From assembly GCF_016811915.1 (NCBI RefSeq), contig NZ_CP069127.1, forward strand, positions 4,790,001 through 4,854,000: DNA of 64,000 bases. Reading direction: 5' to 3'. Numbering within the stretch: position 1 is the stretch's first letter; each line of letters opens with the position of its first letter. The notes under the pieces were generated by a model. The model saw only the letters and a program-made list of their open reading frames with translations. It had not been told where the DNA came from and did no database searches. Position numbers and translations under genes: made by a program. Shown here in pieces: positions 2,046 through 26,652 of the stretch. This DNA is from Brevibacillus choshinensis. GTDB lineage: Bacteria; Bacillota; Bacilli; Brevibacillales; Brevibacillaceae.

Positions 2046-2417
2046 TCACTCAGGCAAGCCCGGCGGCCAACCCAGCAGCGCATGATAGACGGGAGGCCAT
2101 GCCAGGATGAGGATGAACCCAAACCCGATGACAAACAGAGTGGCAGCCGGGCGAACAGGTACCTCCCGACGCCGGAGCAAGAAATGCAGCGCCAGCCATC
2201 CCCCCAGCCACATCGCCAATCCCACTGTCTCTTTTCCGGCAAAGGGCCCAATGCCCCACCAGCCAGGTATCCAGATCCCCAGCTTGAGCAAAGCAGGTTT
2301 ACTTCCCGCCGGATCAACCGTGCTCCAAAGATGGCTGAAGACGACCCCCGCCAAGCCCAGCCACAGTCCGCCAAGCGCCGCTGCCACCTCTCCACTTTGG
2401 GGCTGCCTCTTTTCCAT
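2046..2417 (-). CDS. small integral membrane protein, unknown function
   Basis: The ATG at 2417 is preceded by GGGAGTG at a spacing of about seven bases. Longer in-frame extensions upstream read as a shadow of the neighbouring gene. The 123-residue product has about four hydrophobic segments with Trp-rich boundaries (GIWIPGWWGIGPF) and a basic loop RRREVPVR between the third and fourth. I recognise no family. It sits 20 bases after one membrane protein gene and 20 bases before the phosphoesterase-like gene, so these are probably co-transcribed. Confidence 0.7.
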   Translation of the reverse strand: MEKRQPQSGEVAAALGGLWLGLAGVVFSHLWSTVDPAGSKPALLKLGIWIPGWWGIGPFAGKETVGLAMWLGGWLALHFLLRRREVPVRPAATLFVIGFGFILILAWPPVYHALLGWPPGLPE

Positions 2418-2437
2418 GCCAACACTCCCTATTTCGA

Positions 2438-2986
2438 TTACGGATGCAGGGTAATCAATCCGATTCCCGTGACCAAGCCAACCATCAAGCACAGCCAGAG
2501 AAGAGCAATAAGCAAGAGGACAATCTGCCCTATTTCCTTGTTGTTTCCAAAACGGCGCAGGATGAACCCAGCAGCCACTCCGAGCGGCAACGGAAAGAGA
2601 GAGACGAATTCCTTCCACTCCATCACAATGTTGTGGGCAAGAGGTGTGTGGGCAAGCAGCCATGACTGCGGTCCATCCGGCGAACGGTATCCCATGTACA
2701 GCCAATTGCCAGAAATGATAGCGAGTAAGACAAGCAGGTTCGTCAGCCACAAAAGCCGCTCAAGACCCGAGCCGCCCTCTTTTCCCCTGCCCAATTTCAT
2801 AAACGCAACATGAAAAGTCCAGCAGCCCAGCATGACGGTCATGGTCGCCGAAAGGCCATGCAGCAAGCCTTGCAACCAATAAAAGCCTTTGTCCAGCAAG
2901 TGAACCAAGGGGATCAGCAAAAACAAAAAAGCGGTCACGCATGCTTGCGTAACCGCCAGATCACGTGTGCGGAATAGCCCTTTCAT
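2438..2986 (-). CDS. integral membrane protein, unknown function
   Basis: The 182-residue product has about five hydrophobic segments. A candidate start is the ATG at 2986 behind AGGTGGAG; a GTG at 2995 would lie inside that site. His residues occur in or near helices (HLLDKGFYWLQGLLHGL, HVAF, HTPLAHNIV), which could suggest a haem or quinone-linked membrane protein, but no signature is clear enough to name one. It follows the metallophosphoesterase by 38 bases on the same strand and probably shares its transcript. Confidence 0.65.
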   Translation of the reverse strand: MKGLFRTRDLAVTQACVTAFLFLLIPLVHLLDKGFYWLQGLLHGLSATMTVMLGCWTFHVAFMKLGRGKEGGSGLERLLWLTNLLVLLAIISGNWLYMGYRSPDGPQSWLLAHTPLAHNIVMEWKEFVSLFPLPLGVAAGFILRRFGNNKEIGQIVLLLIALLWLCLMVGLVTGIGLITLHP

Positions 2987-3024
2987 CCTCTCCACCTCAT
3001 AGGTGACTCGATCCGAAAAAGCGG

Positions 3025-4008
3025 CTATCCAGCCAGTCCCGCGCTTTCTTTATCCACCGTAAACGAATCGAGCAGATTATCATCTTTGTCGTACACGTTG
3101 CAGACCGCTTTCTTCCCATTTACATCGACGGTCATGTAATGAGAAGTAGCCTTTGGTCCTTTCACTACGTTTTTCTTGTCTTCAACGACCTTGCTGTAAG
3201 GGGAACCAGCAGCCCCCAGTGTCAGCTGATAAATGCCATGAGTAAAATGATAGCCGTTTGCGTCAAAGTCGCTGTTGATGAGTCGTCTGTTGTAATTGTG
3301 CTCATGCCCGACAAAGGCTGCTGTCACATTATGCTCGTCCAGAAGGTGCCAAAAGGCATCGCGCTGCTTCTTGTTACCATCCAAAGAACGGCCATAGTGC
3401 CCTCCCACCGGATAAGCCGGGACGTGAAACATGACGAAGGTGTGGTCTCTCCCTTTCACGGAAAGCTGTTGCTTCAGCCATGCACTCTGCTGTTCGTCTA
3501 CCACGTAATTGCCTTTTTTATCCTCATGATCTGTATTCAGTGCAATAAAACGCGCATTGCCATAATCAAAGCTGTACGCTGTGCGGCCGTAGCCTTTGAC
3601 CTGCTCGTTTGGCAGGTGGGGAAACGCTTTGCTGAATGCCTCGGGGTCGTCCTCGTGATTGCCCATCGCCGGATAATACATCGAGAGAGGGTAGTAGTCG
3701 TCCACGATATCCTTCCACTCATCCAGTTCCTTCTTCAGATCTGAGCCGCCTTGAACCATATCCCCGGTCACTAAAATAAAACTGGGCTGGGGACTCAGCT
3801 CTTTTACATTCTTCAGGAGCTTTCGAAGGGTTTTCTCATTGACACTGTCCGAGCTGCCCCGGGTATCACCCATCACCACGAAGCGGAACGAATTGGAGGT
3901 CGCCTTCGTTTTGCCGATTCCCATCCATTGCGCGCACGCAAACAGCATGACGAGTCCGCAAGAAATGCCAATCCACTTCAGTTTCCCTCTGGCTGTTTTC
4001 ATCAACAT
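3025..4008 (-). CDS. calcineurin-like metallophosphoesterase, exported or membrane-anchored
   Basis: This 327-residue protein has an N-terminal signal or anchor segment (WIGISCGLVMLFACAQWMGI) followed by a full calcineurin-like catalytic domain. The motifs appear in order: GDTRG near residue 48, GDMVQGG near 80, GNHEDD near 115, FHVPAYP near 196 and GHEHNY near 237. These give the Asp, Asn and His ligands of a two-metal phosphoesterase like those in purple acid phosphatases. The active domain should be outside the membrane. An ATG at 4008 follows GAGGACGGGAA. The substrate cannot be told from sequence. It appears to head the minus-strand run that ends near position 252. Confidence 0.85.
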   Translation of the reverse strand: MLMKTARGKLKWIGISCGLVMLFACAQWMGIGKTKATSNSFRFVVMGDTRGSSDSVNEKTLRKLLKNVKELSPQPSFILVTGDMVQGGSDLKKELDEWKDIVDDYYPLSMYYPAMGNHEDDPEAFSKAFPHLPNEQVKGYGRTAYSFDYGNARFIALNTDHEDKKGNYVVDEQQSAWLKQQLSVKGRDHTFVMFHVPAYPVGGHYGRSLDGNKKQRDAFWHLLDEHNVTAAFVGHEHNYNRRLINSDFDANGYHFTHGIYQLTLGAAGSPYSKVVEDKKNVVKGPKATSHYMTVDVNGKKAVCNVYDKDDNLLDSFTVDKESAGLAG

Positions 4009-12816: not shown

Positions 12817-12875
12817 GCTAGGGGGCAAAGGATTCCTTTACCCAACGGAATACGAAATCCATGCGAAAAGCATGG

Positions 12876-12953
12876 GAGAGGTTCGCGAACTCCCTCTATA
12901 AAAAACTAAGGTGTACAGCAGTACCGTTCCTTGGTATTGTTTTGTTTTTTTTC
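12876..12953 (+). ncRNA. preQ1-I riboswitch with terminator-type expression platform
   Basis: GAGAGGTTCGCGAACTCCCT followed by CTATAAAAAACTAAGG (aptamer 12876-12911) matches the preQ1 class I pattern: a short P1 stem (GAGAGG/CCCTCT-like), a loop, and an A-rich tail that folds into the minor groove and pseudoknot. The downstream segment can form a hairpin in which CTAAGG at the aptamer's 3' end pairs with CCTTGG about 20 bases on, and a shorter TACC/GGTA stem precedes TTGTTTTGTTTTTTTT. Aptamer and terminator therefore compete for CTAAGG. It controls queC-queD-queE and possibly queF, shutting off queuosine-precursor synthesis when preQ1 is plentiful. Confidence 0.88.
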
Positions 12954-24535: not shown

Positions 24536-24964
24536 GTGCAAGGCATTCTTTATTCGTTGCTCGCAGGCGTCTTCATTTGCTTGCAAAGCGTATTCAACGC
24601 CCAAGCGAGCGAAAAGCTGGGCATGTGGCTGACCAATGCCATCGTGCATGGATTGGGCTTTCTGGTATCCTTTTCCATTTTCCTGGCGGTTCGTGATGGG
24701 GATCTGCACAAGATCGGTGAGGTCAACAAAGTCTACTTGCTTGGCGGCGTATTCGGAGCATTGATCGTATTCTTCGTCATGAAAGGGATTACTTCGATCG
24801 GACCCGCCTACTCTGTCTCCATATTGCTCGTCTCGCAACTCATCGTCGCTTTGGTGATCGATTCGCTCGGGTTGTTCGGCGTGGAGAAAGTACCGTTGAA
24901 TCTCAGCAAGGTGGCGGGCATTGCCATCATGATCACAGGCTTGATCATCTTCAAGCTGAAATAA
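24536..24964 (+). CDS. DMT-superfamily transporter of the DUF606/YdcZ type
   Basis: The 142-residue protein has four or five hydrophobic segments, as in the half-size DUF606 (YdcZ) members of the drug/metabolite superfamily: a first helix ILYSLLAGVFICLQSVFNA and then GMWLTNAIVHGLGFLVSF. These often work as pairs or dimers. The start is a GTG at 24536 with AGGGGGG nine bases upstream. It is co-transcribed with the YeiL-like regulator. The substrate is unknown. Confidence 0.8.
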   Translation: MQGILYSLLAGVFICLQSVFNAQASEKLGMWLTNAIVHGLGFLVSFSIFLAVRDGDLHKIGEVNKVYLLGGVFGALIVFFVMKGITSIGPAYSVSILLVSQLIVALVIDSLGLFGVEKVPLNLSKVAGIAIMITGLIIFKLK

Positions 24965-25539
24965 AGATATGAAATAATGCCAGGCTCTAAATACTAGAGA
25001 CGGCTTCATGCTAACCCTTGCTTCTCGTAAACACGCTTGGTTCGGGCTTTAGTGGTGGGAAGGAAAAAGCAGAAAACGCTCAAGCTGGGTAGGGCCACAG
25101 CTCGGGGGTCATTCCTGGTCGGCTCCGCTTCAAAAGCGGAACCCGCGTCCAAGTGGCAGCTTCCGGGAGCATTTTCTTAGGTGGACGCTAAAGGCGGTTC
25201 CGCTTTTTCCACTCAGCCTGGGTCGTGTCCCTAATATCTTTCGCTTATTTCTCCTTTTTCCTCGGACCGGCTTTGTTGTTAGACGAACGAGGTTTGTTGG
25301 TCGCTCTTGATCCATGAGAGAACGAAGCGACTGTGGAGTCCCGCTCAGCGGAGCCATGAAGCCCGAGGCAACAGAATCGCTATCCATGATTAACCCTCGA
25401 AGCTGCGCGCCGTTTTGCGATTCCCTCGAGATTATGGCGCAGCGGACCGTCTACGCTTCCTGGCAGGACGTAGCCCGGAGCGCAGTATGGAAACAGGCTT
25501 CTCCCCACTTCGGATACTTAGGACGTTTGCCCCTACTAT
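24965..25539. other. 575-base non-coding stretch with nested long-range complementary segments
   Basis: The stretch lies between convergent genes and carries no convincing coding frame. GGCTCCGCT at 25121-25129 is exactly complementary to AGCGGAGCC at 25347-25355. Nested inside, AGCGGAACC at 25135-25143 is complementary to GGTTCCGCT at 25196-25204, with GCGTCCA (25145-25151) pairing TGGACGC (25182-25188) further in. The first and second segments can also pair locally (8 of 9). It could be a structured RNA or a dispersed palindromic repeat unit. Confidence 0.5.
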
Positions 25540-26652
25540 TTATTTCCCGAGATGTTCCGGATTCAGCCCCAGCAGTGCCTCATGAACAAAGAGCCCGTCT
25601 TTGCGGATCAGTCTGTCGTCAAACCAAATTTCGCCGCCCCCGTACTCTGGCCGCTGGATGGAGATCAAATCCCAGTGGATCGTGCTCTTGTTTCCATTGT
25701 CCGCCTCTTCGTAGGCCTGGCCTGGCGTCAGATGGAAGCTGCCTGCAATCTTTTCGTCGAACAGGGTGTCTCCCATCGGATGGAGGATGTGCGGGTGAAA
25801 AGCGATGGCAAACTCCCCGATGTAGCGGGCCCCTTCGTCACTGTCCAATATTTGATTCAGTCTTTCCGTATGATTGGCTGTTGCCTCCACGATTTTGCCT
25901 TCTCGGAAGACAAACCGGACATTTTCAAACAATGTCCCTTTATATTGACTCGGTGTGTTGTAGCTGATGGTCCCCTCGATGGAGTCACGCACGGGAGATG
26001 TATACACCTCGCCGTCCGGCATGTTGCGCTTGCCTACCGCCGTTCTCGTTTTGATCCCCTTGATCGAAAACGAAAGATCCGTCCCCGGGCTGACGATCCG
26101 GACTCGATCCGTCTGTTCCATCAGCTCATAGAGCGGCTGACATGCTTTCGCCATTTTCCGGTAATCGAATGCGCACACGTCAAAATAAAAGTCTTCAAAC
26201 GCCTCGGTGGACATATTTGCCTTTTGGGCCAAGGCAGACGTCGGGTAGTTGATGCGCATCCCTTTGACTTTGTTATCGATATGATGGGAAATTTGCCGAT
26301 AAGCTCGCGCGTACATGCGATTCTTTTCTTCCGGCACATCCCGCATTTCGCTGCCGTTGGTCTCTCCGTGAATGCCGATGTAGCCCTGCATCCCCATCCA
26401 CATTTCTTCTTCCCAGCGGACCAATTGGGCGAGCTGCGATTCCGTCAGTCCCTTCAGCCATTCCCGTTGCACCTTGGGTCGCACATAACGCAAGTGAGGA
26501 TAGGCTCCTTTTGCATACAGCTGCTTGACCAGCTCGGCTGCCAGTGCCTCTCCTTCGTCGTATACCATGAGCATGATATTCTCTCCAGGCTGCACATCCA
26601 GACTGTAATCCAGCAGATTGCTCGCAATCTTGCCAATGCGTTCGTCTCTCAT
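25540..26652 (-). CDS. M29-family metalloaminopeptidase
   Basis: The 370-residue protein matches the thermophilic aminopeptidase (AmpS/PepS/AmpT) family. Key segments are GENIMLMVYDEGEALAAELV near the start, RNMPDGEVYTSPVRDSIEG near residue 210 with a Glu ligand, YIGEFAIAFHPHI near 278 with Glu and His, and KSTIHWDLISI near 330 with His-Trp-Asp. It removes N-terminal residues from peptides using a two-metal centre in the cytoplasm. No operon partner is evident. Confidence 0.9.
   Translation of the reverse strand: MRDERIGKIASNLLDYSLDVQPGENIMLMVYDEGEALAAELVKQLYAKGAYPHLRYVRPKVQREWLKGLTESQLAQLVRWEEEMWMGMQGYIGIHGETNGSEMRDVPEEKNRMYARAYRQISHHIDNKVKGMRINYPTSALAQKANMSTEAFEDFYFDVCAFDYRKMAKACQPLYELMEQTDRVRIVSPGTDLSFSIKGIKTRTAVGKRNMPDGEVYTSPVRDSIEGTISYNTPSQYKGTLFENVRFVFREGKIVEATANHTERLNQILDSDEGARYIGEFAIAFHPHILHPMGDTLFDEKIAGSFHLTPGQAYEEADNGNKSTIHWDLISIQRPEYGGGEIWFDDRLIRKDGLFVHEALLGLNPEHLGK

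Follow-up and report, generated by a model that had tools for sequence, protein, structure and literature searches.

A partly decayed copy of a dispersed, probably REP/BIME-like repeat in a convergent gene gap of Brevibacillus choshinensis

The question raised by this locus is what occupies a 575-nt gap between two convergent genes, encoding a YdcZ/EamA-type exporter and an M29 peptidase, in a 64,000-nt stretch of Brevibacillus choshinensis DNA (NZ_CP069127.1, positions 4,790,001 to 4,854,000), which is referred to here as the window. The original prediction described three nested, long-range pairs of complementary arms together with mutually exclusive folds, and considered either a structured RNA or a mobile palindromic repeat more fitting than a simple terminator. 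All six arms are present in the gap and perfectly complementary:

24965-25539, no strand: gap between the convergent genes (575 nt), delimited by the flanking genes
25121-25129 with 25347-25355: outer arm pair, GGCTCCGCT and AGCGGAGCC, with 217 nt between them
25135-25143, + strand: helix arm AGCGGAACC (conserved; helix 5), pairing with GGTTCCGCT at 25196-25204
25145-25151, + strand: apical helix arm GCGTCCA (helix 6), pairing with TGGACGC at 25182-25188

When the 575-nt gap was shuffled 2000 times with its dinucleotides preserved, a nested arm triple of this kind arose once. The nesting is unlikely by chance, yet the arms are fragments of a larger repeat, the nature of which is described below.

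Two quasi-palindromic elements in one unit

A genome-wide search and a covariation analysis were among the checks proposed with the original prediction. In the former, a BLAST search of the window's own genome with the gap as query returned many partial copies in two groups, covering roughly 25042-25275 (element A) and roughly 25323-25510 (element B). Covariance models were built for both, R1 (204 positions) from 33 A copies and R2 (195 positions) from 20 B copies, and the features of the window copy are as follows:

25046-25059, + strand: motif at the 5' end of the unit, GCTTTAGTGGTGGG (with consensus GCTGTAGTGGTGGG), located by pattern search
25060-25263, + strand: element A, about 204 nt long and forming a quasi-palindromic rod (R1, 190.5 bits; covariation)
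25061-25075, + strand: left closing arm of A (helix 1), pairing with 25248-25262 (93%)
25264-25308, no strand: A-B spacer (about 71 nt in many units of genomes G022 and G023)
25309-25502, + strand: element B, about 195 nt long and likewise a quasi-palindromic rod (R2, 133.9 bits; alignment A4)
25501-25514, + strand: motif at the 3' end of the unit, CTCCCCACTTCGGA (usually CTCCCCAC(C/T)(G/A)CAGC), corresponding to the 5' motif in inverted form

Most strong A copies of G022 and G023 have a B copy about 71 nt further on along the same strand, and this A-B unit of about 500 nt recurs as a single piece in many places with 80-91% identity. Among 51 aligned A..B units, the 5' end motif is conserved just outside A, and the unit is bounded by inverted end motifs (GCTGTAGTGG...CCAC(C/T)(G/A)CAGC), so that terminal inverted repeats are present; GTAG is common at the outer 5' bases, where GTTG, GTCG, and GTGG also occur. 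No gene lies within the unit. B copies are also recognised by R1, in the opposite strand (at G023:1591670, for instance, with 70.3 bits for R1 versus 173 for R2). B therefore represents a distant homologue of A in inverted form, which makes the unit as a whole an inverted pair. Other forms exist in some genomes, namely A with an inverted A or A alone, with inverted A pairs present in G001 and G014, and weaker R1 matches (about 75-87 bits) constitute a more distant group whose orientation is unchanged. In one genome (G010, locus L029), B copies switch orientation six times within about 1.8 kb. The left closing arm of the window's B copy (about 25310-25326) has decayed, and the window copy is probably inert.

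The covariation analysis revealed compensatory changes in the helices of both elements, so that one of the two conditions named for refuting the original prediction does not apply. In the A alignment (A3, 33 rows), 97.3% of the cells are paired and double changes occur in 21/40 pairs, and the corresponding values for B (A4, 20 rows) are 95.0% and 29/47. None of 500 shuffles reached the pairing or double-change values of A or B, and moving the partner by 1-3 columns left at most 64.1% (A) and 45.4% (B) of cells paired. Larger sets, whose alignments were fitted to the structure, gave 97.1% and 20/40 for A (106 rows) and 96.0% and 31/47 for B (52 rows), with no excess of further pair types over the control in the larger A set (319/500 shuffles as high). 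Both elements fold as rods. Nine B copies (eight shown as alignments, one by length) and two A copies, picked for their shortness, some of which may be mutual orthologues, lack the tip of the rod and keep both ends, with symmetry judged by eye; their counterpart, A copies consisting of the tip only, was observed at L310 12199-12279 (model positions 71-151) and L066 3170-3253 (69-151).

Against this background, the two inner arm pairs are conserved helices of A. With G-T counted as paired, GCGTCCA/TGGACGC retains 7/7 paired positions in 31 of the 32 other A copies and 6/7 in the remaining one, and AGCGGAACC/GGTTCCGCT retains 6-9 of 9 across all 32. The outermost pair, on which the proposed long-range nesting depended, keeps just 1-6 of 9 paired positions in 15 other A/B comparisons because its arms sit in two different elements, and it links A to B by coincidence. 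The first two arms can indeed pair with each other, over 10 nt at 90%; this local hairpin, with 9/10 positions paired in the window versus 4-8 of 10 in 32 other A copies, is not conserved, and the mutually exclusive folds are unsupported.

Spread of the unit among genomes and sites

The repeat is widespread in the genus and among its relatives. BLAST of the gap found matches in 23/26 genomes of the genus, R2 in all 26, and within the order R2 and R1 matched 35/39 and 32/39 genomes, respectively. In a sample of 200 genomes from the class, searched under stricter filters, R1 matched 9, of which only G087 (two weak matches) lies outside the family. Among the matches listed in a scan of the wider collection, contig titles were almost all Brevibacillus, and the three others are probably chance matches; the phage and plasmid collections gave no match, and no account of the A-B repeat was found in the open-licence literature on Brevibacillus. 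Copy number is uneven, with a single B match in G014 and three A plus three B matches in G013, whereas related genomes hold dozens.

Several observations concern movement. In nine relatives, only 35-39 nt, apparently a simple hairpin, separate the aligned pieces of the same two genes, and no A-B unit is present. In a tree of 87 A copies (75 of the 118 other copies were drawn at random), the 12 copies from the window's genome need 3 label changes compared with 11.5 in shuffles (0/500 as low), and eight of these 12, from scattered sites, form one branch with support of 81/71. Dispersal in many copies, the empty site in relatives, and the grouping of copies by lineage uphold the suggestion of a mobile palindromic repeat, and with no terminator-like site found in 24940-25560, the statement that the gap is not a simple terminator holds as well; it is the long-range nesting and the mutually exclusive folds of the original prediction that found no support. 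Across 200 kb of four 95%-identical genomes, most or nearly all sites are common and no recent insertion was seen, while tandem units at two common sites number 1/1/3/1 and 5/2/3/2 in G022/G006/G005/G023, respectively. Movement is therefore slow on the scale of 95% identity, and arrays change faster. At one site (L067 2647-4308), about 1.66 kb in G022, largely also in G006, occupies the place where G005 and G023 carry the A half of a unit.

Taken together, the sequence in the gap is a single, partly decayed copy of a large, gene-free dispersed repeat composed of paired quasi-palindromic hairpins, and we consider it rather likely that this repeat is non-autonomous, mobile, and REP/BIME-like.

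Orientation, favoured strand, and competing explanations

Among the matches listed, copies oppose fork movement at 68/72 loci in G022, 64/67 in G023, and 15/16 in G000, where copies were merged into loci and G022 and G023 have many sites in common. These counts are based on the strongest R1 matches listed, with 150 candidates per genome scored; they leave out opposite-strand echoes of the same copy, weak R2 matches (including G023:5133340, 5791191, and 5339038, and G022:2069086), and R1 matches overlapping B copies (14 in G022 and 12 in G023). The replication frame is given by dnaA, which lies at the start of G000, G022, and G023, and by the GC skew, which has a positive sign throughout the first 400 kb and a negative one in the window. 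An oppositely oriented A copy about 41 kb to the left of dnaA (G022:C1:6559965, G023:C1:6115161) is an exception common to both genomes.

Genes are also biased towards the leading strand, at 69-76% or about 70% (234/333; 45/59 in the window; 110-114 of 156-164 in four 200-kb stretches). An orientation derived from the neighbouring gene alone was rejected because fork opposition, at about 95%, exceeds this roughly 70%. Flanking genes were classified with a simple ORF caller at 136 single-orientation and 9 mixed loci with usable flanking ORFs, drawn from 218 clusters. Among the 136, the element lies between two genes that both run against it at 83, between convergent genes at 32, between divergent genes at 12, and between two genes running with it at 9.

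An initial reading of the wobble pairs as showing no strand preference was dropped, as the larger alignments favour the reverse strand of A (15 GT versus 62 AC) and the forward strand of B (50 GT versus 14 AC), and the bias persists among pairs with under 10% non-Watson-Crick cells (GT:AC of 7:37 in A and 28:12 in B); a pooled sum of 24:26 merges A and B in opposite senses and is unusable. Because the reverse strand of A corresponds to the forward strand of B, the two biases agree on a single homologous strand that has to fold, whether as RNA or as single-stranded DNA. The favoured strands of A and B sit on opposite strands within one unit, and the orientation of the unit therefore cannot stem from each hairpin's own strand.

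Among the rivals to a mobile repeat, the one that survives best holds that A and B are structured noncoding RNAs or 3'-UTR hairpins, kept for an RNA function such as transcript stability or termination and multiplied by duplication. Conserved loop sequences, the strong covariation, the preference of wobbles for one homologous strand, and a right-hand gene that runs towards the element at 115/136 loci all speak for it, whereas the opposite strands favoured by A and B in one unit, and an orientation that tracks replication (94-96%) more closely than genes do (about 70%), speak against it. Wobbles are also rare, with GT plus AC accounting for 1.8% (A) and 2.7% (B) of all cells compared with 6.7% GU pairs in 20 tRNAs found nearby, a control whose zero AC count is partly built in since the tRNA finder requires pairing, and which sets the low rate against tRNAs rather than a neutral palindrome. 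Furthermore, the gap contains no promoter-like or terminator-like site, and Rfam 15 gave no match at the gathering score in the gap and no family in or around it; a lenient search returned one chance-level match (PK-BYV, 14.7 bits, E 2.8), and seven further loci yielded only T-box. Elsewhere in the window, a PreQ1 riboswitch aptamer at 12872-12915 on the + strand (48.4 bits) exceeds the Rfam gathering score. A structured RNA is an unlikely reading of these elements, and most of the evidence points elsewhere than to a free-standing one. Group IIC introns insert beside terminators with a fork-linked orientation; the A-B unit differs from these in that no Rfam match occurs in or around the gap and no intron features were identified.

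A conventional MITE, a non-autonomous element left over from a DNA transposon with terminal inverted repeats and mobilised by a classical transposase, would account for the inverted end motifs, the absence of a gene, and the dispersed copies. However, no target-site duplication was detected in 51 units (best match 0.598 versus a shuffled best of 0.613), where unit boundaries were set by motif and a short duplication could be missed, and the strong orientation relative to the fork also counts against this explanation. Nor was a transposase gene with the unit's ends found: 15 stretches of 400-3200 nt between neighbouring copies, considered as possible autonomous carriers, held ordinary-looking genes, and the two sites read because of end-motif matches outside known copies (G022:1740788 and G023:4658921) are remnants without a transposase. 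We regard a MITE as quite improbable. One of the 15 stretches, in G022, contains a two-ORF transposase, IS3-like by inspection, that is inserted in an A-B unit (L064, about 2095-3248).

The copies could also act as a chromosomal signal, for example for polarity or supercoiling, with selection for a host function, and not the insertion process, maintaining their orientation and their low number near the terminus. Such a signal would suit both the orientation and the depletion of the terminus-proximal 40% of the replication arms (10/72 loci in G022, 6/67 in G023, and 0/16 in G000 among the matches listed), but it is very unlikely given the one B match of G014 and the few A and B matches of G013, where related genomes have dozens, and given that units are degenerate and truncated in places.

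Relation to known repeats and a proposed mechanism

The reading that we favour, a mobile repeat of paired hairpins, invites comparison with REP/BIME elements. These are inverted hairpin pairs that form tandem arrays, with an enzyme acting on single strands and in one orientation (PMC8266576, PMC6006769), and frequent GT pairs are reported for REPs (PMC3733652). The A-B unit resembles REP/BIME (REPIN) elements and their TnpA-REP (RAYT) system in occurring as many-copy intergenic hairpins (PMC3733652, PMC8266576, PMC6006769), in combining two inverted units with a spacer, in forming tandem arrays as well as homo- and heterodimers, and in lying mostly between convergent or same-direction genes. 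REPs have a conserved GTAG (or CGTC) tetranucleotide next to the hairpin; GTAG-like bases are frequent at the unit's outer foot, too, though in variable form. The unit differs in that its halves are about 200 nt long (204 and 195) rather than 20-50 nt and its wobbles are rare where the GT pairs of REPs are frequent (PMC3733652); in addition, 8 element-bearing genomes contain no Y1 enzyme. The A-B unit cannot be filed as a REP because it is too large, lacks the expected enzyme, and varies in its GTAG bases.

The enzyme was sought through PF01797 (Y1 transposase): 16/26 genomes contain it, and 8 genomes with 19-59 R1 matches apiece lack it. Only 1 of 30 Y1 loci adjoins a copy, and RAYT or IS200 as mobiliser is unsupported. 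The IS200/IS605 family, with its HuH Y1 enzyme and lagging-strand template, is described as having hairpins and movement coupled to the fork (PMC6006769); the A-B unit shares the hairpins, a probable link to the fork, and the lack of a detected target duplication, but differs in containing no gene and in being so rarely adjoined by a Y1 gene. The bcr1-bcr18 repeats of the Bacillus cereus group, intergenic and in some cases called MITE-like or structured (PMC3446304), are similar, in a comparison by description only, in being family-restricted intergenic repeats of a Gram-positive genome.

By analogy with REP/BIME elements, we infer a fork-linked copying mechanism. One strand of the unit would form hairpins where DNA is single-stranded at the replication fork, and the folded hairpins would probably be processed in trans by a putative strand-specific enzyme, allowing copies to spread; the repeat would then work like REP/BIME elements with much larger hairpins. 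Points against this reading are that the search for a mobilising enzyme found none, that no recent insertion separates the 95%-identical genomes compared over 200 kb, and that the strands favoured by A and B oppose each other within a unit. A bolder proposal, that these copies define a class of mobile element made solely of two opposed hairpins of ~200 nt, copied from single-stranded DNA at the fork by a non-Y1 enzyme and inserted with polarity and a weighting towards the origin throughout the family, is tentative and, in our judgement, unlikely.

For work on Brevibacillus, tandem units of about 500 nt likely disturb genome assemblies and RNA-seq mapping. The mobilising enzyme is to be sought, since the known candidates are missing from copy-filled genomes, and the A-B copies provide a large natural set of sites at which to study how an element's orientation is set by the direction of replication. 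If confirmed, the repeat would extend the REP/BIME lifestyle, in the form of hairpins several times the usual size, to a family of Gram-positive bacteria.
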